Assembly (NCBI RefSeq): GCF_900110265.1
Contig: NZ_FODB01000002.1
Coordinates: 1-64,000, forward strand
Origin: Vreelandella aquamarina
GTDB taxonomy: Bacteria; Pseudomonadota; Gammaproteobacteria; Pseudomonadales; Halomonadaceae
Direction of reading: 5' to 3'
DNA length: 64,000 nucleotides
Made by a program: the position numbers and the translations under genes. Each line of letters opens with the position of its first letter. Position 1 is the first letter of the stretch. Shown here one piece after another: positions 37,787 through 53,608 of this stretch. The notes beneath the pieces were generated by a model. That model saw nothing but the letters and a program-made list of their open reading frames with translations. It did no database searches and was not told the origin of the DNA.

Positions 37787-38683
37787 CTACTCACTCTTAT
37801 CCTGATACAGCTTGAGCAGGCTGGAGAAGTCGAGTTTGCCGTTGCCGCCTGCTTTGTGCAGGGTGAACAACGAACGGGCGGCGGAGCCCATGGGCACGGG
37901 GGATGCGCTTTGCTGGCTCACGTCCATGGCGAGGCCTAAGTCTTTGATCATTAGATCCACCTGGAAGCCGCCCTGGTAGCCTTTCGAGGCGGGGGCGTTT
38001 TCCATCACCCCTGGGTAGGGGTTGTAGACGTTCAGCGCCCAGTTGCCGCCGGAGCTTTGCTTCATGATTTCCGACAGCACGGCGGGGTCTAGGCCGTTTT
38101 TGACGCCCATATTGATCGCTTCGCAGGTGCCCGCCATCAGAATCGAGAGCAGCATGTTGTTGCACACTTTGGCTACCTGCCCTGCGCCGTGGTCACCGGC
38201 GTGGAAGATGTTTTTACCCATGGCTTGCAGCACTGGCTGCGCCTGGGCGAACTGAGCCTCCGAGCCGCCGACGATAAAGGTCAGCGTGCCCGCTTGGGCA
38301 CCGCCTACCCCACCGGAAACCGGTGCATCTACAAAGCCAATGCCCTTTTCAGCGCCAGCAGCGGCTACTTGGCGGGCGGTATCGGCATCAATGGTGGAGC
38401 AATCAATCACCAGCGCGCTGGGTTTGATCACCTCGAACAGCGGCGCGTCGCCATCCACGTACAACCCGCGCACGTGCTTGCCTGCGGGCAGCATGGAGAT
38501 GACGAAGTCGGCATCGGTGGCCGCTTCCGAAGCGGTGGCGGCAATCTCGCAGCCTTGAGATTTAGCGGTTTCCAGCGCTTGGGCGGAAAGGTCAAAAGCG
38601 CGCACGTTAAAGCCTGCTTTCGCCAGATTGGCGGCCATGGGGCCGCCCATATTGCCTAAACCAATAAACGCAACGGTAGTCAT
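37787..38683 (-). CDS. mmsB: 3-Hydroxyisobutyrate dehydrogenase
   Basis: Oxidises 3-hydroxyisobutyrate to methylmalonate semialdehyde in valine degradation. The 298 residues begin with the NAD fold FIGLGNMGGPMAANLAKAG. The substrate loop DAPVSGGVGGAQAGTL and the catalytic Lys in GAGQVAKVCNNML are present. Last gene of a three-gene valine module (acyl-CoA dehydrogenase, hydrolase, mmsB). The usual mmsA partner is not here. Confidence 0.95.
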   Translation of the reverse strand: MTTVAFIGLGNMGGPMAANLAKAGFNVRAFDLSAQALETAKSQGCEIAATASEAATDADFVISMLPAGKHVRGLYVDGDAPLFEVIKPSALVIDCSTIDADTARQVAAAGAEKGIGFVDAPVSGGVGGAQAGTLTFIVGGSEAQFAQAQPVLQAMGKNIFHAGDHGAGQVAKVCNNMLLSILMAGTCEAINMGVKNGLDPAVLSEIMKQSSGGNWALNVYNPYPGVMENAPASKGYQGGFQVDLMIKDLGLAMDVSQQSASPVPMGSAARSLFTLHKAGGNGKLDFSSLLKLYQDKSE

Positions 38684-38728: not shown

Positions 38729-39844
38729 TTATTTGAGGTCTGCCAGCGGGTTGGTGTCCCATGCGGGTGCCAGCAGTTCGTCTATAAAGGAGGGCTCGAC
38801 CGAGGCCACGTCGGGGTAGGTCCAGCTTGGCTGGCCGTCTTTATCCACCAGCAGTGCGCGTACGCCTTCGGGGAACTCCCGGTGGCGGCAGCACTGCACA
38901 GAGAGCGAAAGCTCAAACTGAAACACTTCCGCCAACGACATATGCTTGGCGCGGGCGAGCTGCTCGTGAATCAACTTGACCGAAACGGGGCTGCCGTGGG
39001 CCAAGGTTTTTTGCGCTTTGCTGAACCACTTGTCGTCGGTCTCGACCGCCAGCACAGCCTCGACCATCTGCTCGACGGTGTCGTGGTCCATCAGCTCACG
39101 AATTAAAGAAGACGACTTGTAAACTGGCGCTTCCATCTCCGCGAACACCTCTTGGGAGGCCTGCTCCAGCTCGCGCAGTACGTGATTCACTACGCCGTGG
39201 GCGTCGGTGTGTTCGCCTTCGCCCCAGCTGGCTGCTAGCAGCTTTTCGGCCAGCTCGTCGCGGTAGTGGCTGGCAATGGCGCGGTCGGCAAGACCCAGGT
39301 GAACCGCGTCCGGGGCATTAATTTGCCCACCGGTCATGGCCAGAAACCGCCCAGCGCCGCCCGGTAGGCGGTTAAGGAACCAGCTCGCGCCCACATCCGG
39401 GTACAACCCAATGGTGACTTCTGGCATAGCCAACCGGGAGGTTTCCGTGACGATGCGGTGGCTACTGCCGCTTAACAGGCCCATGCCGCCGCCCATCACG
39501 ATGCCGTTGCCCCAGCAGATCACCGGTTTGGGGAAGGTGTGCAGCTGGTAATCCAGGCGGTACTCGTTCTCGAAGAAGCGCTCGGGGAAGTCCGCGGCAC
39601 CTTCACCTTGAATGGCTTTGTAGAGGTTGACCACATCGCCACCGGCGCAGAAGGCTTTTTCGCCTGCGCTATCCAGCAGCACGGCTACGACCCGCTCGTC
39701 GCTTTGCCACTGGTTTAAGCGCGGCAGGATCTCTTCGATCATTTCCAGCGTGAGCGCATTTAAAGAGCGCTCGGCGTTCAGGGTAATCGCGCCAATCACA
39801 TGGCCATCTTGGGTGGTGTGCTCTTCAAATAGTACGCAACTCAT
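38729..39844 (-). CDS. 3-Hydroxyisobutyryl-CoA hydrolase
   Basis: Crotonase-fold enzyme releasing free 3-hydroxyisobutyrate from its CoA ester in valine degradation. The 371 residues are longer than a typical enoyl-CoA hydratase (about 260) and match the HIBCH type, with oxyanion-hole blocks EKAFCAGGDVVNLY and GNGIVMGGGMGL and the acid residues in PEVTIGLYPDVGASWFLNRL. The neighbours (isobutyryl-CoA dehydrogenase and mmsB) fix the pathway. A plain enoyl-CoA hydratase for methacrylyl-CoA is not in the cluster. Confidence 0.92.
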   Translation of the reverse strand: MSCVLFEEHTTQDGHVIGAITLNAERSLNALTLEMIEEILPRLNQWQSDERVVAVLLDSAGEKAFCAGGDVVNLYKAIQGEGAADFPERFFENEYRLDYQLHTFPKPVICWGNGIVMGGGMGLLSGSSHRIVTETSRLAMPEVTIGLYPDVGASWFLNRLPGGAGRFLAMTGGQINAPDAVHLGLADRAIASHYRDELAEKLLAASWGEGEHTDAHGVVNHVLRELEQASQEVFAEMEAPVYKSSSLIRELMDHDTVEQMVEAVLAVETDDKWFSKAQKTLAHGSPVSVKLIHEQLARAKHMSLAEVFQFELSLSVQCCRHREFPEGVRALLVDKDGQPSWTYPDVASVEPSFIDELLAPAWDTNPLADLK

Positions 39845-39890: not shown

Positions 39891-41045
39891 CTATAGCTCA
39901 GCGGCACCGTCGGCCAGTACGCGGCGGGAAATAATCAGCCGCATAATCTCGTTGGTGCCTTCCAGAATACGGTGCACGCGGGTATCGCGCACGTAGCGCT
40001 CCATCGGGTACTCCTTAATGTAGCCATTGCCACCGTAAAGCTGCAGCGCTTCATCGCACACCTTGAAACCCACATCGGTAGCGAACCGCTTGGCCATCGC
40101 ACAGTAGGTGGTGGCATCCGGGTGGCCCGCATCCAGCTTGGTGGCGGCCATGCGTACCAGTTGGCGGGCGGCCACCAGCTCGGTCACCATATCGGCTAGG
40201 CGGAACTGCAGCGCTTGGAACTCGGCCAGGCGCTTGCCGAACTGCTTGCGCTCTAGCATATACTCGCGGGCTTTATTGAGCGCCTGCTGAGCGGTGCCGA
40301 TCGAACACGTCGCAATATTGATGCGCCCGCCGTCCAGGCCCTTCATGGCGATTTTGAAACCGTCGCCCTCGTTGCCCAGCAGGTGGTTAGCGGGTACGCG
40401 CACGTCTTCAAAGGTGATCATGCGGGTGGGCTGGCTATTCCAACCCATTTTTTCCTCTTTGCGGCCGTAACTGATGCCCTCGCTCTTGGCATCCACCGCG
40501 AAGGCGGAAACGCCGCTGGGGCCTTCGCCGCCGGTGCGCGCCATCACCACCAGGAAATCGGTGCTACCCGCGCCGGAAATAAACATCTTGCTGCCGTTCA
40601 GCACGTAGTGCTCGCCATCACGCTTGGCGGTGGTTTTCAGCGAGGCCGCGTCGGAGCCTGCGTTGGGTTCGGTTAAGCAGTAAGAGCCCAATAGCTCGCC
40701 GGTCGCCAGCTTTTCGCCCCACTGCGCCACGGCGTCCGGTGTGCCGAAGTCCGCCAGCATCCAGGTCACCATGTTGTGGATGGTGAGGTACGCGGTGGTG
40801 GAGGTGCAGCCCATCGAGAGCTGTTCAAAAATAATGCTGGCATCGAGCCGGGAAAGGCCCAGTCCGCCGACACTTTCCGGGGCGTAGAGCGAACAGAAGC
40901 CCAACTCCCCTGCTTTACGAATCACATCGACGGGGAAAAAAGATTCTGCGTCCCACTCGGCGGCGCGGGGCTCCAGCTCGTTCTGGGCGAACGCCCGGGC
41001 CATATCGGAAAAAGCGACTTGGTCTTCACTTAGCTCAAAATTCAT
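39891..41045 (-). CDS. Acyl-CoA dehydrogenase, probable isobutyryl-CoA dehydrogenase
   Basis: FAD enzyme of 384 residues. Signatures: CLTEPNAGSDAASL and QLYGGNGYIKEYPMERYVRD. The catalytic base is in the usual short-chain place, E362 in ILEGTNEIMR, unlike the isovaleryl enzyme at 46997 whose base is in the G-helix. With mmsB and the hydrolase downstream, isobutyryl-CoA (valine) is the likely substrate. First gene of the valine module; a LiuR-like site lies about 90 bp upstream (41131-41146). Confidence 0.9.
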   Translation of the reverse strand: MNFELSEDQVAFSDMARAFAQNELEPRAAEWDAESFFPVDVIRKAGELGFCSLYAPESVGGLGLSRLDASIIFEQLSMGCTSTTAYLTIHNMVTWMLADFGTPDAVAQWGEKLATGELLGSYCLTEPNAGSDAASLKTTAKRDGEHYVLNGSKMFISGAGSTDFLVVMARTGGEGPSGVSAFAVDAKSEGISYGRKEEKMGWNSQPTRMITFEDVRVPANHLLGNEGDGFKIAMKGLDGGRINIATCSIGTAQQALNKAREYMLERKQFGKRLAEFQALQFRLADMVTELVAARQLVRMAATKLDAGHPDATTYCAMAKRFATDVGFKVCDEALQLYGGNGYIKEYPMERYVRDTRVHRILEGTNEIMRLIISRRVLADGAAEL

Positions 41046-41130: not shown

Positions 41131-41146
41131 TTGACGTTTACGTTAA
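41131..41146 (-). promoter_or_regulatory. Candidate LiuR site upstream of the valine-degradation operon
   Basis: TTGACGTTTACGTTAA matches the perfect palindrome in the liuR promoter (TTTACGTTAACGTAAA) at 13 of 16 positions. It is 86 bp before the isobutyryl-CoA dehydrogenase start. The core promoter boxes there are unclear. Confidence 0.55.
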
Positions 41147-41231
41147 CTTATATTCTTACCCTACCTTGCGCAACCAAATCCCCCACGACCTTTGGCGTAG
41201 AAATGGGCTTACGGCCTTATTTCACAAGCAG

Positions 41232-41255
41232 AAAAAAGGGTGCCCGAAGGCACCC
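41232..41255 (-). terminator. Terminator of the liv importer operon
   Basis: On the minus strand GGGTGCC - TTCG - GGCACCC is followed by six T. It lies 34 bp after the livM stop. The stable TTCG loop strengthens the call. Confidence 0.93.
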
Positions 41256-41288
41256 AATCCACGGACAGACGCGGTTAACGGGAATCCA

Positions 41289-42290
41289 TCACTTAAAGTT
41301 TTTACGGTACATTTTGGCCAGCTCGCCGATGATGCCGCTACGGAAGCTCAGCACGCACACCACAAAGATGATGCCCAGAATCACGCTTACCCAGTTCCCC
41401 AACGGCGACTGCGCCAGCAGATGCTGCAGGCTAACCACTAGCCCCGCCCCCATCAGCGGGCCAAGCAGCGTGCCTACACCGCCCAGCAGCGTCATCAAAA
41501 TCACCTCACCCGACATATGCCAGTGGGCATCGGTGAGCGAGGCCAGCTGGAACACCACGGTTTTAGTGGAACCTGCCAAACCTGCTAGCGCCGCCGAGAG
41601 AACGAAAGCCAACAGCTTGTAGGCATCGACGTTGTAGCCCAGCGACACGGCCCGGGGCTCGTTCTCGCGAATGGCTTTCAGCACTTGCCCAAAGGGTGAA
41701 TGAACCGTGCGCTGAATCACCGCGAAGCCAAACACGAACACGGCGAAGACGAAGTAGTACATCGCCAAGTTGCTGCTCAAATCGATCACGCCAAACAGGT
41801 GCCCTCTCGGCACACCGTGCAGGCCATCCTCCCCACCGGTGAACGACGACTGCACGAACACGAAGAACATCAGCTGTGCCAGCGCCAGTGTGACCATGGC
41901 GAAGTAAATGCCCTGGCGGCGAATAGAGAGCACGCCAAACAATACGCCTAGCAGCGTTGCCATTAACGTACCCGCAAGAATGCCTAGCTCTGGCGTTAAG
42001 CCTGGGTAGCTGGCCAGCAAGTAGCCGGTCACATAGCCGCCGGTGGCTAGGAAGGCCGCATGGCCAAATGAGAGCAGCCCGGCGTAGCCCAACAGTAGGT
42101 TGAAAGCGCAGGCAAACAGCGCAAAACAGAGAATCTTCATCAAGAAGACGGGGTACGCCACAAAGGGAGCAACTAACCCCATCGCCAGCAGCACAAGGTA
42201 GAACATATTGCGGCGTAGCTTGGCGCGCCGTTGACGCTCCTGCACCACGGAGGGCAACTGGGTTGCCGAGGTGGTATGCGTTGTTGTCAT
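41289..42290 (-). CDS. livM: Branched-chain amino acid ABC transporter permease LivM
   Basis: Second membrane subunit of the importer, 333 residues with about nine to ten hydrophobic segments. After a polar start (about 30 residues) comes MFYLVLLAMGLVAPFVAYPVFLMKILCFALFA. The cytosolic EAA-like coupling loop is VLKAIRENEPRAVSLGYNVDAYKLLAFVLSA, the family signature. It follows livH by 2 bp. Confidence 0.94.
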   Translation of the reverse strand: MTTTHTTSATQLPSVVQERQRRAKLRRNMFYLVLLAMGLVAPFVAYPVFLMKILCFALFACAFNLLLGYAGLLSFGHAAFLATGGYVTGYLLASYPGLTPELGILAGTLMATLLGVLFGVLSIRRQGIYFAMVTLALAQLMFFVFVQSSFTGGEDGLHGVPRGHLFGVIDLSSNLAMYYFVFAVFVFGFAVIQRTVHSPFGQVLKAIRENEPRAVSLGYNVDAYKLLAFVLSAALAGLAGSTKTVVFQLASLTDAHWHMSGEVILMTLLGGVGTLLGPLMGAGLVVSLQHLLAQSPLGNWVSVILGIIFVVCVLSFRSGIIGELAKMYRKNFK

Positions 42291-42292
42291 GG

Positions 42293-43180
42293 TTATGCCT
42301 CCTTACCGAACAGCCCAGCGGGGCGTAGCATGAGTACCAGGATCATCACTAGAAAGATCACGGTATTAGAGGCTTCCGGGTAGTACACCTTGGTTAACCC
42401 TTCAATAATGCCCATGCCTAAGCCGGTTAAAATGGCGCCTAAAATGGAGCCCATACCGCCGATAACGACCACCGCAAACACCACAATCAATAGGCTTGAG
42501 CCCATAGTGGGCGATACCGGGTACAGCGGTGCCGCCAGCACGCCTGCAAAGGCGGCAAGCCCAACCCCAAACCCGTAGGTTAGGGTAATCAGCAGCGGTA
42601 CGTTCACACCGAACGCCTGCATCAGTTGGGAGTTTTCTGTACCGGCGCGCAGGTAGGCACCCAAGCGGGTACGCTCAATCATGAACCAGGTGAATAGACA
42701 CATGGCCAGCGCCGCTACCAGCACCCAAGCACGGTAGGTGGGCAGGAACATAAAGCCCAGGTTCAGCCCGCCCTGTAGAATGGCAGGCGTTTCGTAACGC
42801 GCCCCAGAAACGCCGAACAAGTTAATCAAAGTGCCTTCGAAAATCAGCGCCAACCCGAAGGTCAGCAGTAGCCCGTAAAGGTGGTCCAGGTGGGCAATGC
42901 GACGCAGCAGAAAGCGCTCCATCAGCATGCCGCAACCACCCACTACCAGCGGGACCAAAATCAGTGCTAGCCAATAGTTAATGCCCAGGTAGCGAAAGCC
43001 TAGCAGCGCGGCGAAGGCTCCCAGCATGTACTGCGCCCCATGGGCAAAGTTGACGATCTTCAGTAGGCCGAAGATGACCGCCAGGCCCAAACTAAGCAGT
43101 GCGTAAAAGGCACCGTTCACAAGCCCAAGCGTTAGCTGGCCCATGAACACGGCCATTGGCACGCCGAATATCATCGTCAT
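42293..43180 (-). CDS. livH: Branched-chain amino acid ABC transporter permease LivH
   Basis: First membrane subunit, 295 residues, with about eight transmembrane segments. Signatures include LTLGLVNGAFYALLSLGLAVIFGLLKIVNFAHG at the N-terminus and the coupling loop LGAYLRAGTENSQLMQAFGVNVPLL. It is separated from the binding-protein gene by 150 bp containing two hairpins, which probably lower permease expression relative to the binding protein. Confidence 0.94.
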   Translation of the reverse strand: MTMIFGVPMAVFMGQLTLGLVNGAFYALLSLGLAVIFGLLKIVNFAHGAQYMLGAFAALLGFRYLGINYWLALILVPLVVGGCGMLMERFLLRRIAHLDHLYGLLLTFGLALIFEGTLINLFGVSGARYETPAILQGGLNLGFMFLPTYRAWVLVAALAMCLFTWFMIERTRLGAYLRAGTENSQLMQAFGVNVPLLITLTYGFGVGLAAFAGVLAAPLYPVSPTMGSSLLIVVFAVVVIGGMGSILGAILTGLGMGIIEGLTKVYYPEASNTVIFLVMILVLMLRPAGLFGKEA

Positions 43181-43205
43181 GGTATGACTCTCCTCGCCGC
43201 TAAGC

Positions 43206-43227
43206 GGGCAGCCCTATAGGGCTGCCC
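43206..43227 (-). other. Intercistronic hairpin before livH
   Basis: GGGCAGCCC - TATA - GGGCTGCCC, a perfect 9-bp stem without T-run, just upstream of livH. With the hairpin at 43280-43316 it forms a structured gap between the binding-protein and permease genes. Confidence 0.6.
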
Positions 43228-43279
43228 CAGCGCGTTGCTTATTGTTAGAAACGCCTTTCATCACGCCTTTACGGCTTGC

Positions 43280-43316
43280 TTGGCCCCAGGCCAAGGCAGC
43301 AGATGCCTGGGCCTGG
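43280..43316 (-). other. Intercistronic hairpins after the binding-protein gene
   Basis: Two overlapping, competing pairings: TTGGCC-CCA-GGCCAA (43280-43294) and CCAGGCC (43286-43292) with GGCCTGG (43310-43316). They lie 15-50 bp after the binding-protein stop and lack a T-run. A 3'-end protection or partial termination role is likely. Confidence 0.5.
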
Positions 43317-43330
43317 AGCGCGTCAGCAGA

Positions 43331-44554
43331 TCAGTTCTGTACCAGCGAGCACTGGCTTTCAGACAGCGGACGGTAGGCTTCTGCGGCGGGAATGGTGCTA
43401 AGGATCTCGTAGAGGTCCCACTCACCGGTAGACTCTTCCGGCGTTTTTACCTGGGCTAGGTACATGTCGTAAATCATACGGCCATCTTCACGAATGCTGC
43501 CGTTACGGGCGAAGAAGTCGTTGATCGGCTCTTCGGCCATTTTCGCGCGCACGGTTTCGGGGTCATCGGTGCCAGCGGCTTCCACGGCTTTCAGGTAGTG
43601 CATAGTGCTGGAGTAGATACCGGCTTGCACCATGGTGGGCATACGGCCTGTTTCTTCAAAGTAACGCTCGGACCAAGCGCGGGACTCTTCATCCATGTCC
43701 CAGTACCAGCCGGTGGTCAGCAGCAGCCCTTGGGTGGCTTCTAGCCCCAGCGCGTGTACGTCGTTGAGAAAGATCAGCAGACCTGCTAATTGCTGGCCGC
43801 TTTGGGTCAGACCAAACTGGCTGGCAGTGGTAATGGCGTTGACCGTGTCGGCACCGGCATTGGCGAGGCCGACAATTTTCGCTCCAGAACCCTGCGCCTG
43901 AAGAATGTAGGAGGAGAAGTCACTGGTGGGGAACGGGTGACGCACGCCGCCGACAATTTCACCGCCATTGGCTTCTACCACACTGGTCACGTCGGCTTCC
44001 AGTGCATGGCCGAAGGCGTAATCCGCAGTGAGTAGGAACCAGCTATCGCCGCCCTGCTCAACGACGGACTTCGCGGTGCCGTTGGCCAGCGGATAGGTGT
44101 CATATACCCAGTGAATATGGTTCGGAGTACAGTGTTCGTTGGTAATACTAGACGCCGCCGAGCCCGAGACGATGCCCAGGCCGTTGTTCTCTTGCAACAC
44201 TTTGGTCACGGCGATAGACACAGACGACGCCACTAAGCCGCCAACCATATCGACGTTACGCTGGTCGATCCACTCGCGCACGGTGTTGGCACCCACGTCG
44301 GCACTGTTGCGGTCATCGGCGCTGAAAATCACAATGGGTGAGCCGTTCACGCTGCCGCCAAAATCGGCCACCGCCATTTCCATCGCAGTTTGGCCACCTG
44401 GGCCAGCCAAATCACGGTAGGTGCCGGACATATCGGCTAAGTAGCCAATACGCACTTCACCATCGCTGATCTCGGCGTGGGCGGTCGAGATCGCCATGCT
44501 GGAGGCAGCGGCAACGGCGATGCTGGCGGCCAGCGTCTTCTTCATATAGGTCAT
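43331..44554 (-). CDS. ABC transporter substrate-binding protein (LivK-like)
   Basis: Periplasmic type I binding protein of 407 residues, start ATG 44554 with AGGAG 7 nt upstream. Signal peptide: MTYMKKTLAASIAVAAASSMAISTAHA, cut at AHA-E. The mature part opens with GEVRIGYLADMSGTYRDLAGPGG, typical of the Peripla_BP_6 group. Residues such as those in SGSAASSITNEHC and SWFLLTADYAFGHALEADV belong to a subfamily assigned to diverse ligands (branched-chain amino acids, urea, amides). Branched-chain amino acids or their 2-oxo acids are inferred from the liu and valine genes on either side. Confidence 0.9.
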   Translation of the reverse strand: MTYMKKTLAASIAVAAASSMAISTAHAEISDGEVRIGYLADMSGTYRDLAGPGGQTAMEMAVADFGGSVNGSPIVIFSADDRNSADVGANTVREWIDQRNVDMVGGLVASSVSIAVTKVLQENNGLGIVSGSAASSITNEHCTPNHIHWVYDTYPLANGTAKSVVEQGGDSWFLLTADYAFGHALEADVTSVVEANGGEIVGGVRHPFPTSDFSSYILQAQGSGAKIVGLANAGADTVNAITTASQFGLTQSGQQLAGLLIFLNDVHALGLEATQGLLLTTGWYWDMDEESRAWSERYFEETGRMPTMVQAGIYSSTMHYLKAVEAAGTDDPETVRAKMAEEPINDFFARNGSIREDGRMIYDMYLAQVKTPEESTGEWDLYEILSTIPAAEAYRPLSESQCSLVQN

Positions 44555-44699
44555 GTTCGTCTCCTGGCCCTGAGGGCCTTTGTTTTTATGATGCGGACGT
44601 TCAGTTATAGCGTTTGTGTGTGGAGCGCTTGTGTATGAAACGTAAGTGTTGCGTTTGTTGTTCTTTAAGGCCGTGCTTACAGTTTAGATGGTGTGCGAT

Positions 44700-45449
44700 T
44701 TATACCCCCAGCATGCTGTTTAAATGTTCCCGCCGGGAAGGCAACTGCTCGGCGGTGATCTCCTCAACAATTTGGCCGTGATCCATCACAAAGTGGCGGT
44801 CAGCCAGCGGGGCAGCAAAGCGGAAGTTCTGCTCAACCAGCACGATGGTCATGCCGCGCTCTTTTAGCTGCACCAATACCTCGCCCAGCTTTTGCACGAT
44901 GACCGGCGCCAAGCCTTCGGTGATTTCATCCAGCAGCAGCAAGCGCGCACCGGTACGCAGAATGCGCGCCATGGCCAGCATCTGCTGTTCGCCGCCGGAG
45001 AGCCGCGTGCCCTGGCTTTTGCGACGCTCGTAGAGGTTCGGGAACATGCCGTAGATTTCATCCAAGCTCATACCGCCTGAACGCACAGTGGGTGGCAGCA
45101 GCAGGTTTTCGTGAACATCTAAGCTCGCAAAAATACCGCGCTCTTCCGGGCAGTAGCCAATCCCTAACCGGGGAATATGGTGCGGCTTCATGCGCAGGGT
45201 TTCATTGCCATTAATGACAATCGAACCAGTGCGCCGCCCGACCATATTCATAATCGCTTTTAGCGTGGTGCTGCGGCCCGCGCCGTTACGGCCCAGCAGA
45301 GTCACCAGCTCGCCACGCTTCACGTCGAAATTCACCCCATGCAGAATGTGCGATTCGCCATAGAAGGCGTGCAGGTCTTGCACTCGCAGCATCTCTAGGG
45401 TCTGGTTTTCTGGGGCTTCTTGGCTCTCGAATGCTTCTGCGGTATTCAT
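44700..45449 (-). CDS. livF: Branched-chain amino acid ABC transporter ATPase LivF, Walker A variant
   Basis: ATPase subunit of 249 residues. The signature motif LSGGEQQMLAMAR and Walker B LLLLDEITEGLAP are intact, the Q-loop region is GYCPEERGIF and the H-loop position appears as VLVEQN, as usual for LivF. Oddity: Walker A reads GRNGAGRST, with Arg59 (codon CGC) in place of the invariant Lys. It overlaps livG by 4 bp. Its partner LivG has a normal Walker A, so the ATPase pair may be asymmetric. Confidence 0.94.
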   Translation of the reverse strand: MNTAEAFESQEAPENQTLEMLRVQDLHAFYGESHILHGVNFDVKRGELVTLLGRNGAGRSTTLKAIMNMVGRRTGSIVINGNETLRMKPHHIPRLGIGYCPEERGIFASLDVHENLLLPPTVRSGGMSLDEIYGMFPNLYERRKSQGTRLSGGEQQMLAMARILRTGARLLLLDEITEGLAPVIVQKLGEVLVQLKERGMTIVLVEQNFRFAAPLADRHFVMDHGQIVEEITAEQLPSRREHLNSMLGV

Positions 45450-46231
45450 ACGGCAGCCTCCTCAGCCTCTTCGCTGCCCATATAGGCTTCGCGCACTAAG
45501 GGGTTGCGGGAAACCGTGTCGTAATCCCCTTCTGCCAGTACCGCACCCCGTGCCAATACGGTAATACGGTCACACAAGCGGCTGACCACGCTAAGGTTGT
45601 GCTCCACCATCAACACCGTGCGGCCTTGGGAAACCCGTTTGATCAGCGCCACGATACGGTCAACATCTTCCGCGCCCATGCCCTGGGTCGGCTCGTCTAG
45701 CAGCATCATGCTGGGGTCCAGCGCCAGCGTGGTGGCCACTTCTAAGGCGCGCTTGCGGCCATAGGGCATTTCCACAGTGAGCGTATCGGCGTATTCGCGC
45801 AGGCCCACTTCATCGAGCAGCGCTAGGGCGCGGTCGTTGAGGTGTTCCAGCGTTTTTTCCGATTTCCAGAAGTGGAACGACGTGCCCAGCTGGCGCTGAA
45901 GCGCTACGCGCACGTTTTCCAGTGCGGTCATGTGGGCAAATACCGCTGAAATCTGAAACGAACGCACTAAGCCAAGCTGGGCGATCTCGTTGGATTTTTT
46001 GCTGGTGATGGGTTGGCCACGATAGAGAATCTCGCCCCGCGTAGGGGGCAAAAACTTGGTTAACAGGTTAAAGACCGTCGTTTTACCTGCACCGTTTGGG
46101 CCAATCAGGGCATGAATATGCCCCTCCTGCACCTGGAGGTTTACGTTATCCACGGCGGTAAAGCCGCGAAACTCTTTGGTCAGCCCTCGAGTTTCGAGCA
46201 CTGGCCCCTTGGTCACTTCGTCTGCACGCAT
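45446..46231 (-). CDS. livG: Branched-chain amino acid ABC transporter ATPase LivG
   Basis: ATPase subunit of 261 residues with normal Walker A GPNGAGKTT (K50), signature region PYGRKRALEVATTLALDP (the degenerate LivG form of LSGGQ) and Walker B MMLLDEPTQGM. The H-loop His lies in MVEHNLSVVSRLCDR. First gene of the five-gene importer operon livG-livF-binding protein-livH-livM, divergent from liuR. Confidence 0.94.
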   Translation of the reverse strand: MRADEVTKGPVLETRGLTKEFRGFTAVDNVNLQVQEGHIHALIGPNGAGKTTVFNLLTKFLPPTRGEILYRGQPITSKKSNEIAQLGLVRSFQISAVFAHMTALENVRVALQRQLGTSFHFWKSEKTLEHLNDRALALLDEVGLREYADTLTVEMPYGRKRALEVATTLALDPSMMLLDEPTQGMGAEDVDRIVALIKRVSQGRTVLMVEHNLSVVSRLCDRITVLARGAVLAEGDYDTVSRNPLVREAYMGSEEAEEAAV

Positions 46232-46294
46232 GAGGTAGGACGCCTCTTGTTGTTCTTGTACGGTGGGAAGCGAAACTCGTTAGCCAGCAACGCA

Positions 46295-46324
46295 TCCTTA
46301 CCTGAACGTAAGGTGTAAGTGCAA
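46295..46324 (-). promoter_or_regulatory. Promoter of the liv operon with LiuR-like palindrome
   Basis: On the minus strand TTGCAC (46319-46324) and TAAGGA (46295-46300) have an 18-bp spacer. The spacer and -10 carry the 18-bp inverted repeat CCTTAC-N6-GTAAGG (46296-46313). Its core matches the liuR palindrome at 12 of 16 positions. A long spacer holding a palindrome is the classic design for MerR-type activators. Confidence 0.5.
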
Positions 46325-46450
46325 ACTAGCAACCCCACACAGGGTATTACAATTACAACTTTGGTCTACGCACCACTCTGATGCACCAAATTAAAGCTTA
46401 AAAGTCTTTATTTATCAGTTATTTTTTAAAATTCAACGGTAACTCACTCA

Positions 46451-46481
46451 TTGCAATCTAAGCTTTACGTTAACGTAAACT
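46451..46481 (+). promoter_or_regulatory. liuR promoter with perfect LiuR palindrome
   Basis: TTGCAA (46451-46456) and TAAACT (46476-46481) are spaced by 19 bp, the long spacer typical of MerR-family targets. The 16-bp perfect palindrome TTTACGTTAACGTAAA (46464-46479) lies between and over the -10 box. From memory this resembles the LiuR motif described for proteobacteria. Confidence 0.75.
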
Positions 46482-46542
46482 TGTTTTAGCCTCATGGTCA
46501 GTGTTCCATAGGGACATTCCCCTATCGACGAGAATAATGATC

Positions 46543-46947
46543 ATGAGCAAAACCTACTCGATCAGCGAACTGGCCAGCGAGTTTGATGTGACCACGCGTA
46601 GCATCCGCTTTTATGAAGATCAGGAGCTACTGCATCCCACCCGCCGGGGCCAGACACGTATTTACAGCAGTAAAGATCGCGTACGGCTAAAGCTGACACT
46701 GCGCGGCAAACGCCTGGGGTTTTCGCTGGCGGAAATCCGCGAGCTGTTTGAGCTGTGGGATGAGACCCGCAGCGGCAGCGAAAAGCAGCTACACCTGATG
46801 CTGAGCAAAATCAGCGAACGCAAAGCCGCGCTAGAGCAGCAGATGAAAGACATCACGATGGTGCAGTTGGAGCTTGAAAGCGCTGAGATTCGCTGCCGCC
46901 AAGCCCTTGAAGAGCTTAACGAGAAACATCCGGCCACCGCGAAATAA
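46543..46947 (+). CDS. liuR: MerR-type regulator of leucine/isovalerate degradation
   Basis: A 134-residue MerR protein: winged helix-turn-helix at 1-70 (YSISELASEFDVTTRSIRFYEDQELL, then RRGQTRIYSSKDRVRLKLTLRGKRLGFSLAEI) and a coiled-coil dimerisation helix at 75-130. There is no metal-binding cysteine cluster. LiuR is known as the local regulator of liu genes in many proteobacteria. ATG 46543 gives the usual MSKTYSI start; ATG 46537 is equally possible by sequence. It heads the liu operon and has its own palindrome upstream. Confidence 0.92.
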   Translation: MSKTYSISELASEFDVTTRSIRFYEDQELLHPTRRGQTRIYSSKDRVRLKLTLRGKRLGFSLAEIRELFELWDETRSGSEKQLHLMLSKISERKAALEQQMKDITMVQLELESAEIRCRQALEELNEKHPATAK

Positions 46948-46996
46948 ACAACACCAACGCATAACGACCCGATTAACAACGACAAGGTGATTGACC

Positions 46997-48166
46997 ATGT
47001 TTTCCCACTATTCAGAACTAAATTTCGGTCTTGACGATGAGCTGAACATGCTGCGTGAGCAGGTCAACGCCTTTGCCGCCAGTGAGATTGCCCCACGCGC
47101 CGCCGAGATCGATCACAACAACGAGTTTCCCAACGACCTGTGGAAGAAATTCGGCGATATGGGCCTGCTGGGCATTACCGTACCGGAAGAAGATGGCGGC
47201 AGCGGTATGGGCTACTTGGCCCACTGTATCGCCATGGAGGAGATCTCCCGGGCCAGTGCTTCCGTCGGGCTCTCCTACGGCGCGCACTCCAACCTGTGCG
47301 TTAACCAGCTCAAGATCAACGCCTCCGCCGAGCAAAAAGCCAAATACCTGCCCAAGCTGATGAGCGGCGACCACGTGGGCGCGCTGGCGATGTCAGAGCC
47401 CGGCGCTGGCTCCGATGTGGTCTCCATGCAGCTGCGCGCCAAAGAGGATGGCGACCACTACATTCTCAACGGCAACAAAATGTGGATCACCAACGGCCCC
47501 GATGCCGATGTGCTGGTGGTTTACGCCAAAACCGACCCGGATGCCGGTTCCAAAGGCATCACTGCGTTTATTATCGAAAAAGGCATGCCGGGCTTCTCCA
47601 CCGCCCAGAAACTCGACAAGCTGGGCATGCGCGGCTCTAACACCTGCGAGCTGGTCTTCCAGGATTGCCGTGTGCCCGCCGAGAACGTGCTGGGCGAAGT
47701 AGGCAAAGGCGTTCGTGTATTGATGAGCGGCCTGGATTACGAGCGCACCGTTCTGGCCGCTGGCCCCATCGGCATCATGCAAGCCGCTATGGACATCGTC
47801 ATTCCTTACATCCATGAGCGTAAGCAGTTCAATCAATCCATCGGTGAGTTCCAACTGGTGCAGGGCAAGGTGGCGGATATGTACACCACGCTAAACGCCT
47901 GCCGCGCTTATTTATACGCCGTCGCGGCCGCCTGCGACCGTGGCCAAACTTCTCGTAAAGATGCCGCTGGCGTCATCCTCTACTGCGCTGAAAAAGCCAC
48001 CCAGGTCGCGCTGGATGCCATCCAGCTACTGGGCGGCAACGGTTATATCAACGAGTACCCCACCGGCCGCCTGCTGCGCGACGCGAAGCTTTACGAAATT
48101 GGCGCGGGCACCAGCGAGATTCGCCGGATGCTGATTGGCCGCGAACTTTTCACCGAAAGCCTTTAA
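46997..48166 (+). CDS. liuA: Isovaleryl-CoA dehydrogenase
   Basis: FAD enzyme for the third step of leucine degradation, isovaleryl-CoA to 3-methylcrotonyl-CoA. With ATG 46997 (AAGGTG 7 nt upstream) it has 389 residues. The catalytic base is E249 in the G-helix ([10 protein letters not shown]), and the place of the usual C-terminal Glu is Gly ([12 protein letters not shown]); this pair is diagnostic for isovaleryl-CoA dehydrogenase. Acyl-CoA dehydrogenase signatures: [10 protein letters not shown] and [20 protein letters not shown]. Confidence 0.95.
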
Positions 48167-48188: not shown

Positions 48189-49796
48189 ATGAGCACACTC
48201 TCCACACAGATCAACCCGCGCAGCGATGTGTTTCAGGCCAACGAGGCCGCCATGCTGGGGGAAGTCAACAAACTCCGTGAACTCACTGCGGCCATTGCAG
48301 AAGGAGGCGGTGAGAAAGCCCGCGCCCGCCATGAGAGCCGTGGCAAGCTGTACGTGCGTGACCGCATCGACCATTTGATTGATGAAGGCTCGCCGTTTCT
48401 GGAGTTTTCCGCGCTGGCGGCGCATCACGTTTACGACAGTGAGGTACCTGCCGCAGGCGTGATCACCGGGATTGGTCGGGTATCTGGCGTTGAGTGCGTG
48501 ATTGTGGCCAACGACGCCACGGTAAAAGGCGGCACCTATTTCCCGCTAACGGTGAAAAAGCACCTGCGTGCCCAGGAAATTGCCCGCAAGCACCGCCTGC
48601 CGTGCATCTACTTGGTGGATTCTGGCGGTGCCTTCCTGCCCCGCCAGGACGAAGTCTTCCCTGACCGTGACCACTTCGGGCGTATTTTCTACAACCAGGC
48701 CACGATGTCCGCTGAAGGCATTCCGCAGATCGCCGTGGTGATGGGCTCCTGTACCGCAGGGGGTGCGTATGTGCCTGCCATGGCGGATGAGTCCATCATT
48801 GTTAAAGAGCAAGGCACGATCTTCCTGGGTGGCCCACCACTGGTAAAAGCCGCCACGGGGGAGAGCATCAGCGCGGAAGACCTGGGCGGTGCGGATGTTC
48901 ACGCCAAAGTGAGCGGTGTAGCCGACCACTACGCCGAAAATGACGCCCATGCGCTGCAGCTTGCCCGCGCCTGCGTATCGCGTCTGAACTGGCAAAAGCG
49001 CGGCCAGCTGGCCATGCAGCCGCCTAGGCCGCCCAAGCTCGACCCTTCAGAGCTTTATGGCATCGTCGGCACCGACCTGAAAAAGCCCTACGACGTGCGC
49101 GAAGTCATTGGCCGCATCGTCGATGGCTCCGACTTTGACGAGTTCAAACGCTACTACGGCGACACGCTGGTGACCGGCTTTGCCCATATTCACGGCTACC
49201 CGGTGGGGATCGTGGCGAATAACGGCGTGCTGTTTTCTGAGAGCGCGGTAAAAGGTGCGCACTTTATTGAGCTGTGCGCCCAGCGCAAAATCCCGCTGGT
49301 GTTCCTGCAGAACATCACCGGCTTTATGGTTGGCTCCAAGTACGAGCATGAAGGCATTGCCAAGCACGGCGCCAAACTCGTCACCGCCGTGGCCTGCGCC
49401 AACGTGCCGAAATACACCGTGCTGATTGGCGGCAGCTTCGGCGCGGGTAACTACGGTATGTGTGGTCGTGCTTACGACCCCAACCTGCTGTTTATGTGGC
49501 CCAACGCGCGTATTTCGGTGATGGGCGGCGAACAGGCGGCGGGCGTACTTTCCCAGGTAAAACGCGAGCAGTACGAGCGCGAAGGCCAAGAATGGAGCAA
49601 AGAGGACGAAGAAGCGTTCAAAAAGCCCACCCGCGACCAGTACGAGCATCAGGGCCACCCCTACTACGCCAGCGCCCGCCTGTGGGATGACGGCGTGATC
49701 GACCCGATGCAAACCCGCGATGTGCTGGGGCTGTCACTGGCCGCCGCGATGAATGCCGAAGTCAAAGAGACGCGCTTCGGCGTGTTCCGGATGTAA
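48189..49796 (+). CDS. liuB: Methylcrotonoyl-CoA carboxylase beta (carboxyltransferase) subunit
   Basis: Carboxyltransferase half of 3-methylcrotonyl-CoA carboxylase, forming 3-methylglutaconyl-CoA. The 535 residues form two crotonase-like domains. Visible blocks are [54 protein letters not shown] and, in the C-terminal half, [20 protein letters not shown] and [16 protein letters not shown]. Partner of LiuD. Order liuA-B-C-D-E is the conserved operon. Confidence 0.95.
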
Positions 49797-49808
49797 GGGG
49801 CGAACATC

Positions 49809-50633
49809 ATGGCTTACTCAACATTAGTCATCGAGGCGGGTATCGCTCGCCTAACCTTAAACCGCCCAGAGGTGCATAACGCCTTTGACGATAGCCTGAT
49901 TGCCGAACTCAATGCTCATCTGGAAAAGCTCCACGACTTGGCAAGTGCAGGCGACGTGCGGGTGGTGGTGCTCGGCTCTGAAGGTAAAAGCTTCTCCGCA
50001 GGTGCTGACCTGAACTGGATGAAGCGCATGGTCGATTACGACCTGGAAGATAACCTAGCGGATTCCCGCAAGCTTGCGGCGCTGATGCACGGCCTGGATA
50101 CCCTGCCCTGCCCGACCATCTGCCGCGTACAGGGGGCGGCGTTTGGTGGCGCGGTGGGCTTAGCCGCCTGCTGCGATATCGTCGTGGCGTCCGAAAAAGC
50201 CAAGTTTTGCCTGTCGGAAGTCAATATTGGCCTGTCGCCTGCGGTGATTAGCCCTTACGTTCAGCGCGCCCTTGGCCAGCGCCAAATGCGCCGCTACGCG
50301 CTGACCGCCGAAGTGATGGATGCGCCAACCGCGCTCAGCCTGGGTTTAGCCCATCAGGTAGTGGAGCACGATGCCTTGGATAACGCGGTGGATAGCATGA
50401 TCGCTACGCTGGTTAAAGGCTCCCCTCAGGCACAGCGGGCTACCAAGGCACTATTAGCCACCGTGGCCCAAGCTCCAGATGCCGATGCTACTCGTGAGCA
50501 CACCTGCCAAGTGATTGCCAAGCTGCGGGTGAGCCAAGAGGGCCAAGAGGGCCTCGCCAGCTTTTTTGACAAGCGTCGCCCCGCCTGGACGTCACCCGAA
50601 GAACACAACAACACTGCGGAGCCACGCTCATGA
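49809..50633 (+). CDS. liuC: Methylglutaconyl-CoA hydratase
   Basis: Crotonase-family hydratase turning 3-methylglutaconyl-CoA into HMG-CoA. The 274 residues have oxyanion-hole blocks EGKSFSAGADLNWMKRM and GAAFGGAVGLAACCDIV and the acid residue region SEVNIGLSPAVISPYV. It overlaps liuD by 4 bp (ATGA). Identity as hydratase for this pathway rests on position in the liu operon. Confidence 0.92.
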   Translation: MAYSTLVIEAGIARLTLNRPEVHNAFDDSLIAELNAHLEKLHDLASAGDVRVVVLGSEGKSFSAGADLNWMKRMVDYDLEDNLADSRKLAALMHGLDTLPCPTICRVQGAAFGGAVGLAACCDIVVASEKAKFCLSEVNIGLSPAVISPYVQRALGQRQMRRYALTAEVMDAPTALSLGLAHQVVEHDALDNAVDSMIATLVKGSPQAQRATKALLATVAQAPDADATREHTCQVIAKLRVSQEGQEGLASFFDKRRPAWTSPEEHNNTAEPRS

Positions 50634-52681
50634 CGTTTACCCCAACCAAATTCGATACCCTGCTGGTGGCTAACCGCGGTGAGATTGCCTGCCGCGTGAT
50701 GCGTACCGCCCGCCGCATGGGCTTAAAAACCGTGGCGGTTTATTCCGATGCCGACGCCACCGCCCGCCACGTACGTGAAGCCGATGAAGCCGTGCGCCTC
50801 GGCCCTGCCGCCGCCCGGGAAAGCTACTTAAGCGTTGACGCGGTGATTGAGGCCGCCCAACGCACCGGCACCGGCGCGATTCACCCCGGCTATGGCTTTC
50901 TGTCTGAAAACGGCACCTTTGTTAAAGCGCTAGAGCAAGCGGGCATTACTTTTGTTGGCCCGCCCGCTTCCGCCATTGCCGCCATGGGCGACAAGTCTGC
51001 CGCCAAAGCGCGTATGGCGAATGCGGGCGTGCCGCTGGTGCCCGGCTACCACGGCGACGACCAAGGCGATGCCCTGCTGCGTTCCGAGGCCGATAAGATC
51101 GGCTACCCCGTCATGCTAAAAGCCAGCGCCGGTGGCGGCGGTAAAGGCATGCGCGTGGTAGAGAGCGGTGAAGGCTTCCAGGCCGCGCTGGACGGCTGCC
51201 GCCGGGAGTCTAAAGCCGCGTTTGGCGATGACCGCATGCTGATCGAGAAGTATCTAGTACAGCCCCGCCATGTGGAAGTACAGGTGTTCTGCGACCGTTA
51301 CGGCAACGGCGTGTATCTGTTCGAGCGGGACTGCAGCGTGCAGCGCCGACATCAAAAAGTGATTGAAGAAGCCCCCGCCCCCGGCATGACGCCTGAACTG
51401 CGCGCCGCCATGGGCGATGCCGCCGTTCGCGCCGCCCAGGAGATTGGCTACGTGGATGCGGGCACGGTGGAGTTTCTGCTGGACTCTTCACCAGGTCAGG
51501 ACGGCGCTTTCTATTTCATGGAGATGAACACCCGCCTGCAGGTCGAGCATCCCGTTACCGAGATGATTACCGGTCAAGACCTGGTGGAGTGGCAGCTAAG
51601 AGTCGCTATGGGCGAGCCGCTGCCCTGCCGCCAGGACGAGCTAACCATTACCGGCCACAGCTTTGAAGCACGCATTTACGCCGAAGACCCGGAGCAGGAC
51701 TTCCTTCCCGCCACCGGCCTACTCACCCGCTTCGCGCTGGACTTGGAAGGCGCAGGGCTAGGCGCTGATCAAGTGCGATTGGATAGCGGCGTGGAGAGCG
51801 GCGATACGGTGTCGATGCACTACGACCCGATGCTCGCCAAGCTGATTGTGCATGGCGTTGACCGCGACGCTGCGCTAGCCACCCTCAACCGGGCGCTGGC
51901 GGCGCTGGATGTGCAGGGCGTGGTCACCAACCGCGCCTTCTTGCAGCGCTTAGCCAATCACCCTGGCTTTAAGAACGTCGAGCTGGATACCCGCTTTATC
52001 GAGCGCAACGAAGCCACCCTGTTTGCTCCGCGTCAGTTTTCTACAGAAGACTATGCCAGCGCCGCGCTGATTGGCTTGCATCAATTAGCCCAGGAGTGCG
52101 AAAGCGACTCCCCTTGGGGCCGCCACGATGGTTTCCGACTGAACGCGCCGCACACCATTCGCATTGCGCTGTGTGACCCGGCAAGCGCTCAAGCCGCGGA
52201 TAATGACAGCGCAGTGGTCGTGGTAGAGGGCAAGCGCGCCACCTTGGATACCCAGTGGCAGCTCACCATTGGCAACAGCACACTGACTGCCAGCCTACAG
52301 CCGCTGGAAGGCGATGCCGTGGCCGTCACACTCAACGGTCACCGCCGCCGCTTACAGGCGTATAAAGATGGTCATGTCGTGGTGATGGCCGAACCCAGCG
52401 GTGAAATCCGCCTGTTCTGGCGGCGCATCGATGCCATCGACCACGGCCACCACGAAGCGGAATCCACCCTCACCGCTCCGATGAACGGCACGGTAGTGGC
52501 GCTGCTGGTGGAGCCCGGCGCTCAGGTTGAAAAAGGCATGCCGCTGATGGTGATGGAAGCCATGAAAATGGAGCACACCATGACCGCTCCCGCCGATGGC
52601 AGCGTAGAGACGTTCCACTTCCAGGCGGGCGATACCGTTGGCCAGGGCGATGTACTGCTCGACTTTGCCCCCAGTGAATAG
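50630..52681 (+). CDS. liuD: Methylcrotonoyl-CoA carboxylase alpha (biotin) subunit
   Basis: Biotin carboxylase plus carrier half of methylcrotonyl-CoA carboxylase, 683 residues. Domain order: biotin carboxylase N-terminal domain (about 1-115, LLVANRGEIACRVMRTARR), ATP-grasp (about 120-320, KASAGGGGKGMRVV and FMEMNTRLQVEHPVTE), C-terminal BC domain (to about 450), a linker domain, and biotin carrier domain (about 605-683) with biotinyl Lys K646 in MEAMKMEH. Works with LiuB. Confidence 0.95.
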   Translation: MTFTPTKFDTLLVANRGEIACRVMRTARRMGLKTVAVYSDADATARHVREADEAVRLGPAAARESYLSVDAVIEAAQRTGTGAIHPGYGFLSENGTFVKALEQAGITFVGPPASAIAAMGDKSAAKARMANAGVPLVPGYHGDDQGDALLRSEADKIGYPVMLKASAGGGGKGMRVVESGEGFQAALDGCRRESKAAFGDDRMLIEKYLVQPRHVEVQVFCDRYGNGVYLFERDCSVQRRHQKVIEEAPAPGMTPELRAAMGDAAVRAAQEIGYVDAGTVEFLLDSSPGQDGAFYFMEMNTRLQVEHPVTEMITGQDLVEWQLRVAMGEPLPCRQDELTITGHSFEARIYAEDPEQDFLPATGLLTRFALDLEGAGLGADQVRLDSGVESGDTVSMHYDPMLAKLIVHGVDRDAALATLNRALAALDVQGVVTNRAFLQRLANHPGFKNVELDTRFIERNEATLFAPRQFSTEDYASAALIGLHQLAQECESDSPWGRHDGFRLNAPHTIRIALCDPASAQAADNDSAVVVVEGKRATLDTQWQLTIGNSTLTASLQPLEGDAVAVTLNGHRRRLQAYKDGHVVVMAEPSGEIRLFWRRIDAIDHGHHEAESTLTAPMNGTVVALLVEPGAQVEKGMPLMVMEAMKMEHTMTAPADGSVETFHFQAGDTVGQGDVLLDFAPSE

Positions 52682-52690
52682 GAGCCGAAC

Positions 52691-53608
52691 ATGGCACTGC
52701 CCTCGTCTATCAAGCTCTTTGAAATGGCCCCCCGCGACGGGCTGCAGAACGAGCCGGGCACCCTGGTGCCCACCGCCACCAAAATCGAGCTGATCGAGCG
52801 GCTGGCGAATGCGGGTATTCACCATATCGAAGCAGCCAGCTTTGTCTCGCCCAAGTGGGTGCCGCAAATGGGCGATGCCGCTGAGGTGATGCGCGGCATT
52901 CAGCGCCAGCACGGCGTGGTGTATTCCGCGCTGACGCCAAACCTAAAGGGGTTGGAAAGCGCCCTGGAGGCAGGTGTTGAGGAAGTCGCGGTATTCGGTG
53001 CGGCATCGGAAGCGTTCTCCCAGAAGAACATCAACTGCTCAATTGCCGAGTCGCTGGCGCGCTTTGAGCCGGTGCTTGCCCGCGCCAACGAGGCAGGCGT
53101 GCGGGTGCGGGGCTACGTCTCCTGCGTGCTGGGCTGCCCTTATGAGGGCGACATTGCCCCCCATAAAGTGGCTGACGTCGCCAAAGCGCTGTATGAGATG
53201 GGCTGCTATGAAGTTTCCCTGGGCGACACCATTGGCGTGGGTACGCCGCTGGCCGCTAAGCGAATGATCGAAGCCACTCGCCAACAGGTGCCGATTGAGA
53301 AACTGGCCGCTCACTTCCACGACACTTACGGCATGGCGATTGCCAACCTGTACGCCGTGCTGGAAGAAGGCGTGAGCGTGATCGATGCCGCCACGGCAGG
53401 CCTGGGTGGCTGCCCCTACGCTAAGGGCGCATCGGGCAATGTGGCCACCGAAGACGTGCTCTATTTATTGGAAGGGCTGGGTATCGATACCGGCATCGAC
53501 CTGCAGGCAGTGATCGATACCGGCTACTGGATCACTCAGCAGCTTGGCCGTAAACCCAGTGCCAAAGTGGCACTCGCCAAAGGGTGTGCCAAAAGCAGCA
53601 AAGCATAA
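52691..53608 (+). CDS. liuE: Hydroxymethylglutaryl-CoA lyase
   Basis: Cleaves HMG-CoA to acetyl-CoA and acetoacetate, last step of leucine degradation. The 305-residue TIM barrel has the metal/substrate block [14 protein letters not shown] (catalytic Arg and Asp), the [12 protein letters not shown] metal-binding histidines, and the lyase signature [19 protein letters not shown] with the active-site Cys. Nine bp after liuD. Confidence 0.96.

Follow-up and report, generated by a model that had tools for sequence, protein, structure and literature searches.

Conserved palindromic sites lie upstream of branched-chain amino acid degradation genes and of presumed uptake genes in a 64,000-nucleotide stretch of Vreelandella aquamarina DNA (contig NZ_FODB01000002.1, positions 1 to 64,000; hereafter the window) and elsewhere in the same genome. 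We propose, with a probability of roughly 80%, that these sites serve as operators for LiuR, a MerR-family protein that represses the catabolism of branched-chain amino acids, and that LiuR thus governs both the degradative pathway and importers. Without inducer, which would probably be a pathway intermediate, LiuR would occupy the promoters of its own liuR-liuABCDE operon, acad8-hibch-mmsB, mmsA, an acyl-CoA synthetase/short-chain dehydrogenase-reductase (SDR) operon, the liv importer operon and, in this genus, a tripartite ATP-independent periplasmic (TRAP) importer, and there would block RNA polymerase. Because sites lie on the promoters of both importers and catabolic operons, uptake and degradation would be switched together. 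A preliminary description of the window had predicted one LiuR-type regulon over the liu, valine and liv genes. Conservation of the sites supports this regulon and all of the targets then named, although its extent had been drawn too narrowly: mmsA, the synthetase/SDR operon and the TRAP importer belong to it as well, each with a site in 30/30 genus loci.

Conserved sites at the liuR and acad8 promoters

Here ‘genus’ covers genomes named Vreelandella or Halomonas. A LiuR scan of named genomes yielded the best 80 loci, whose gene order was established by tblastn, and 22 genus loci (L018-L038 and L070) together with the window form an alignment of 23 rows. A second genus sample took the 30 best-matching loci per gene, own genome counted in, from 58 (acad8), 57 (mmsA), 56 (TRAP) and 58 (synthetase) genomes with the gene; its species may overlap with those of the 23 rows. 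Loci L299-L301 stand outside all counts. Sites were scored with a weight matrix derived from the target sites themselves; when each promoter in turn was left out of the matrix, the commonest two forms still scored 18-27 bits.

The liuR promoter contains a perfect 16/16 palindrome, TTTACGTTAACGTAAA (46464-46479, no strand), exactly as first described. At up to three mismatches to this sequence, the only matches in the window are the liuR site itself and a pair of overlapping registers at acad8, whereas shuffled windows averaged 0.07 matches and reached three in 0/100 cases. The pattern TTTACGTTAACGT[ACG]AA is kept at the liuR site in all 23 aligned rows, and 15/16 columns are kept in at least 22/23 rows, ranking the site 3 of 296 windows. 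More broadly, a TTTACGTWWACGTAAA-type palindrome, which we take to be the LiuR motif, matches at 13/16 or better upstream of liuR in 67 of the best 80 loci; the 13 loci lacking it are 12 from Aeromonas, in which liuR lies behind liuE, and L078.

The site upstream of acad8-hibch-mmsB, TTGACGTTTACGTTAA (41131-41146, no strand), matches at 13/16. An overlapping register (41137-41152, no strand) matches at 14/16 in the window, falls to 12/16 in six relatives and scores 17.2 bits vs 24.0 bits for 41131-41146; we have set it aside as the true site, and both the matrix and the six relatives thus favor the register chosen in the preliminary description. The acad8 site is kept in 23/23 aligned rows and in 30/30 loci of the second sample, with 15/16 columns kept in at least 22/23 rows (rank 1 of 175 windows). 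Footprinting in close relatives, the check suggested when the regulon was first predicted, therefore found the sites kept and not lost: 23/23 at each of the three promoters in the window, and 15/17 for liv in the second sample.

Further predicted targets in the genome

A search of the whole genome (3.5 Mb in 125 contigs) with TTNACGTWWACGTNAA, a pattern derived from the sites at liuR and acad8, found six places at no more than one mismatch, vs one for a reversed-pattern control. Five of the six lie upstream of liuR, acad8, mmsA and the acyl-CoA synthetase/SDR and TRAP operons. Across 61 genus genomes, exact matches number 186 vs 6 for the control. When three mismatches were allowed, the further matches (L005-L009) equaled the control number (5).

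The site upstream of mmsA (methylmalonate-semialdehyde dehydrogenase; TIGR01722 above cut-off) is the same 16-mer as that at acad8 and is kept in 30/30 genus loci at 12 to 15 of 16. Another site, kept in 30/30 genus loci at 13 to 15 of 16, precedes genes for an acyl-CoA synthetase and then an SDR, followed by a gap and an acyl-CoA dehydrogenase; genes that we read as those of a thiolase and a TetR-like regulator lie beside this operon, which may represent the isoleucine branch. Finally, a LiuR-like site stands upstream of a TRAP receptor gene (L013 5619-5634; G000:C60:54618-54633) and is kept in 30/30 genus loci (12 to 15 of 16) and in six further genus loci. The nearest solved relatives of this receptor are TakP (2hzk) and a keto-acid-binding protein (7ug8).

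Could these similarities be chance matches in A+T-rich intergenic DNA? A match of the quality seen at liv does arise about once per 8 kb of own DNA scanned. Nevertheless, the excess of exact matches over control in the 61 genomes, the placement of the sites at one pathway and their conservation amid diverged intergenic DNA make this explanation exceedingly improbable. For the sites other than liv, a chance origin is rejected on motif counts and scores; at liv, the case against chance comes from conservation and not from motif score.

The distribution of genes and sites among individual genomes is mixed. In G009 (99% complete), none of LiuR, acad8, mmsA, the TRAP receptor and the synthetase was detected at the thresholds applied, and exact sites are absent too; this is a single case. 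Genomes G041 and G048 (66 and 71% complete) lack a genus-type LiuR match, G048 having only a 35% match, yet G041 retains TRAP, the synthetase and three exact sites. LiuR is present without TRAP in G034 and G047.

Another LiuR-like site, scoring 19.7 bits (L014 4725-4740; G000:C49:11724-11739), falls between malate synthase and thioesterase genes, which we take from their sequences to be malate synthase G-like and small thioesterase-like. Because it is kept at 17 bits or more in 15/30 genus loci, we left it out of the core regulon.

The liv promoter

The liv site, CTTACCTGAACGTAAG (46297-46312, no strand), is a weak 12/16 match that lies 167 bp from the liuR site. The match had been reported correctly, with bounds (46296-46313) that were one base too wide at each end. 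In the 23 aligned rows, 12/16 of its columns are kept (rank 36 of 296 windows), and its distance to the liuR site is 166 or 167 bp in every row. The distance is 165-168 bp in 15/17 loci of the second sample, own genome included; in the other two, liv is absent beside liuR because acad8 lies within ~350 bp of liuR. In some genus members, the site approaches consensus (TTTACCTTTACGTAAA, 21 bits, in L022). Outside the genus, a liv site of at least 9 bits is present in 7/14 divergent liv-liuR regions (L041, L045, L046, L048, L051, L053 and L061), at 164, 178 or 179 bp. The conserved spacing within the genus and the presence of a site in half of the other regions make it likely that LiuR controls liv within the genus and does so sporadically beyond it.

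Four genus loci (L039, L040, L273 and L298) have no liv beside liuR; there, acad8 faces liuR with an acad8-type second LiuR-like site between them. In L039 and L040, the liuR site and the acad8-side site are both kept though liv is missing.

Several observations weigh against the regulon as proposed. When the liv promoter is left out and the matrix is derived from the remaining five, the liv site reaches 10.8 bits, which ranks it 18 of 149,977 positions (~150 kb) of own DNA, a background that includes stretches chosen around hits (L015-L017 serving as background only); it is therefore weak as a motif alone, and the sites at the other promoters of this genome score 21.8 to 28.3 bits. No liv site of at least 9 bits was found in the other seven outside-genus regions (L042, L043, L044, L047, L052, L064 and L066). 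The sixth TTNACGTWWACGTNAA place lies inside the coding region of that acyl-CoA synthetase itself (C82:16747); we take it to be a chance match in coding sequence and not an operator, and its 16-mer also occurs in G046 and G038, among the matches listed. A TRAP site of at least 17 bits is missing in 14/17 loci from other genera of the family. This genus-wide site, present in 3/17 loci elsewhere in the family, suggests that the LiuR-TRAP link is largely genus-specific, and it looks recent. Among the Liv proteins, the livK-type binding protein has as its nearest solved relative 3i09, which is branched-chain amino-acid-binding by name and not by shown specificity. Lastly, kinship among the genomes means that the conservation counts are not independent.

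A conserved box, ACAATTACAACTTTGGTCTA (46349-46368, + strand), lies between the liv and liuR sites. Its core, ACTTTRGT, occurs in all 37 divergent livG-liuR regions across families (the 23 genus rows and 14 regions outside the genus), including those that lack a LiuR site at liv. One locus, L057, was left out of this set, as liv does not lie within 700 bp of liuR there; it nonetheless has a second match, at 14/16. Elsewhere in the genome, TTACAACTTTGGTYTA recurs exactly once, in the interval separating the TRAP receptor gene from a divergent gene that we take to be tmcA; at three mismatches, it is hardly commoner than its control. The liv promoter itself would be read from a conserved stretch at 46319-46332 (- strand; TTGCTAGTTTGCAC in the liv sense), in which TTGCAC is a candidate -35 kept in 17/23 rows, and a candidate -10 that starts with TAA in 21/23 rows and overlaps the right arm of the LiuR site.

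These features raise a rival explanation in which liu, acad8, mmsA, the synthetase operon and TRAP are LiuR targets, whereas liv answers mainly to a factor that binds the ACTTTRGT box, its LiuR site serving for tuning only or being kept through the overlap with the -10. The low score of the liv site, the presence of the box core in every region against the absence of a LiuR site from half of those outside the genus, and the candidate -10 within one arm all fit this explanation. By contrast, it accords poorly with conserved columns in both arms, with the near-consensus site of L022 and with the sites of Marinobacter xestospongiae (L053) and a Nitrincola (L061), which reach 21-22 bits and lie similarly far from liuR. 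We regard a mainly box-driven liv operon as rather unlikely, and continue to favor LiuR control of liv within the genus.

A different conserved stretch, resembling CTACGCC(A/T)AAGGT, lies upstream of the acad8 LiuR site at 41188-41206. AAGGT, AAAGT or AAAGC occurs 46-48 bp before that site in 21/23 rows, perhaps as the site of another regulator; we do not equate this AAGGT-type stretch with the box at liv.

Site position and mode of action

Promoter elements were assigned by conservation. By this assignment, the predicted operators would lie over the -35 at liuR and mmsA, abut the -10 at acad8, fall between the -35 and -10 at liv and stand just downstream of the promoter at TRAP. Because these positions vary and could all block polymerase, a role for LiuR as a repressor fits better than one as a classical MerR activator.

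At liuR, conservation is strongest in a block downstream of the palindrome. This block, CTTGTTTTAGCCTC (46480-46493, + strand), directly follows the palindrome and is identical in 23/23 rows. It contains a candidate -10, TAGCCT (46487-46492, + strand), 17 bp beyond a candidate -35, TTTACG, inside the palindrome. Given the invariance of CTTGTTTTAGCCTC, we favor this pair as the simpler and likely reading of the promoter. At acad8, GTTGC occurs 28 bp before the site in 21/23 rows and the site abuts ATAAG. The mmsA site mostly begins with TTGACG and is followed within 15 bp by TATAC in 20/30 loci, an arrangement similar to that at liuR. From the beginning of a conserved GCTAGCTTA-type element to the beginning of the TRAP site, the distance is 32-35 bp in 30/30 loci.

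Membership in the MerR family invites the alternative that LiuR is a classical activator that untwists promoters with 18-20 bp spacers, and the preliminary description had placed the liv and liuR palindromes in spacers of 18-19 bp. At liv, this arrangement is plausible: TTGCAC-18-TAAGGA places the site in the spacer, with TTGCAC kept in 17/23 rows and the initial TAA of the candidate -10 in 21/23. At liuR, it is doubtful. A 19-bp spacer there requires TTGCAA (46451-46456) as the -35. Among the 23 rows this hexamer varies through 17 forms and reads TTGCAA in the window alone; its closing CAA is nonetheless kept in 18/23, a point in favor of the long spacer, as is TAAACT, found in 18/23 inside the end of the palindrome. 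The elements assigned at mmsA, TRAP and acad8 do not suit an activator of this kind, and LiuR is described as a repressor in the available text of two reports (PMC3223726, PMC8871633). Activation in the classical MerR manner thus seems distinctly unlikely, and repression remains our preferred mode of action.

Spacing between the liv and liuR sites

Between the two LiuR sites, length is preserved more strictly than sequence. The box core lies 58 bp from the liv site in 23/23 rows. From the ACTTTGGT core to the liuR site (46366-46462, no strand), the distance is 96 or 97 bp in 23/23 rows and 95-98 bp in 15/17 second-sample loci, while the 23 spacers average ~55% identity. For pairs at 0.45-0.55 identity, spacer length differs by 0.47 bp on average and at most 1 bp, compared with a mean of 4.9 and a maximum of 13 bp in a TRAP intergenic control (28 of 30 genus loci), whose spacer is longer at ~136-149 bp; in three control pairs below 0.45 identity, length differs by at most 2. 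Outside the two sites, lengths vary widely, from 45 to 223 bp between the livG side and the liv site and from 74 to 130 bp between the liuR site and the liuR start. Moreover, the inter-site distance in six Oceanospirillaceae loci is 178-179 bp, one helical turn more than in the genus.

Constant length with diverged sequence, together with the one-turn increment in Oceanospirillaceae, suggests that the liv site, the box and the liuR site must keep their relative helix faces. The distance of 164 bp in one Marinobacter fits same-face phasing less well. A possible basis for such phasing, which we offer tentatively and consider unlikely, is a repression loop in which LiuR dimers at the liuR and liv promoters, on the same face ~16 turns apart, touch each other or a factor bound at the box. 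Looping by a MerR-family repressor would be unusual. If it occurred, the loop would switch importer and pathway as one unit. Another reading is that a shared activator serves both promoters.

Genes of the liv-liuR region

On the + strand, liuR (46543-46947) encodes a 134-residue MerR-family regulator (Pfam MerR_1 and MerR-DNA-bind) and heads the operon. It is followed by liuA, an isovaleryl-CoA dehydrogenase (46991-48166; best PDB matches 4o5m, 4kto and 1ivh); liuB, a carboxyl transferase (48189-49796; Pfam Carboxyl_trans) that by position would be the methylcrotonyl-CoA carboxylase beta subunit; liuC, of the enoyl-CoA hydratase family (49809-50633; family match); liuD, the methylcrotonyl-CoA carboxylase alpha subunit (50630-52681; biotin carboxylase domains and BT_MCC_alpha); and liuE, similar to 3-hydroxy-3-methylglutaryl-CoA (HMG-CoA) lyase (52691-53608; family match).

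The liv genes run on the - strand: family matches identify livG-type (45446-46231) and livF-type (44700-45449) ATP-binding cassette (ABC) ATPases and a livM-type permease (41289-42290), a periplasmic binding protein occupies the livK position (43331-44554), and a livH-type permease (42293-43180) is assigned by position and synteny. For the four Liv subunits scanned, the best NCBIfam matches are urea-transporter types below cut-off, and Liv types also matched; branched-chain compounds are the presumed substrates, by family resemblance. Beyond liv, also on the - strand, lie an acad8-type isobutyryl-CoA dehydrogenase gene (39891-41045; best PDB match 1rx0, human ACAD8, E 4.6e-139 vs 9e-92 for the next), hibch, of the 3-hydroxyisobutyryl-CoA hydrolase type (38729-39844; NF004127 above cut-off, Pfam ECH_2), and mmsB, a 3-hydroxyisobutyrate dehydrogenase gene (37787-38683; TIGR01692 above cut-off).

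The common order in the genus is livM-livH-livK-livF-livG / liuR-liuABCDE, with acad8 beyond liv (22 loci), and the liv-liuR order is also common to Oceanospirillaceae. Genus LiuR proteins share 74-81% identity with their nearest Oceanospirillaceae counterparts (L041-L052, among the best 80 loci) but 49-68% with the LiuR matches in 76 sampled genomes from other genera of their own family. Horizontal transfer of the liv-liuR block is possible; the LiuR tree is short and poorly resolved.

Relation to known regulons

LiuR, the liu operon and the control of leucine, valine and isoleucine genes are already known; the founding LiuR paper is reportedly that of Kazakov in 2009. Control of valine and isoleucine genes by LiuR has been reported for Shewanella (PMC3223726) and proposed for Rhodospirillum (PMC7238569), so the valine half of the earlier joint prediction of importer and valine genes had been published, whereas its liv half was not found in the accessible parts of the literature. 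The Shewanella regulon resembles the one proposed here in its MerR-family repressor and in placing liu and ivd operons under one factor. Its targets named in the accessible text are ldh, liu, ivd, bkd, gltBD, thrABC, aceBA and tyrR; that text names no liv ABC or TRAP importer under LiuR and assigns brnQ to TyrR (PMC3223726). In Rhodospirillum rubrum, an ILV box likewise precedes both liuR and the homologues of ivdC-E-F, but its gene order is alphaproteobacterial and the excerpts at hand name no importer (PMC7238569). Pseudomonas aeruginosa shares the liuRABCDE cluster and a LiuR called a repressor, but CbrAB/Crc control embeds LiuR there, and the available portion of that report names no liv-type importer under it (PMC8871633). 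TakP, to which the TRAP receptor with the LiuR site is closest among solved structures, binds 2-oxo acids, 4-methyl-2-oxovalerate more weakly than a straight-chain acid, and no LiuR link is named in the part of its description available (2hzk; PMC1839085). Neither a LiuR-liv nor a LiuR-TRAP link was found in the accessible parts of this literature, including PMC5343134, PMC9023270 and PMC7305145, and an earlier description for liv is possible.

The less expected elements are the liv and TRAP importers as predicted targets and the constant distance kept between two of the sites. The results as a whole map, in testable form, a single regulon that would join the uptake and breakdown of branched-chain compounds in a salt-loving genus, with two importers proposed as LiuR targets. 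More generally, the DNA between the predicted liv and liuR operators, fixed in length while its sequence has diverged, offers a direct test case for helical phasing by a MerR-family repressor.

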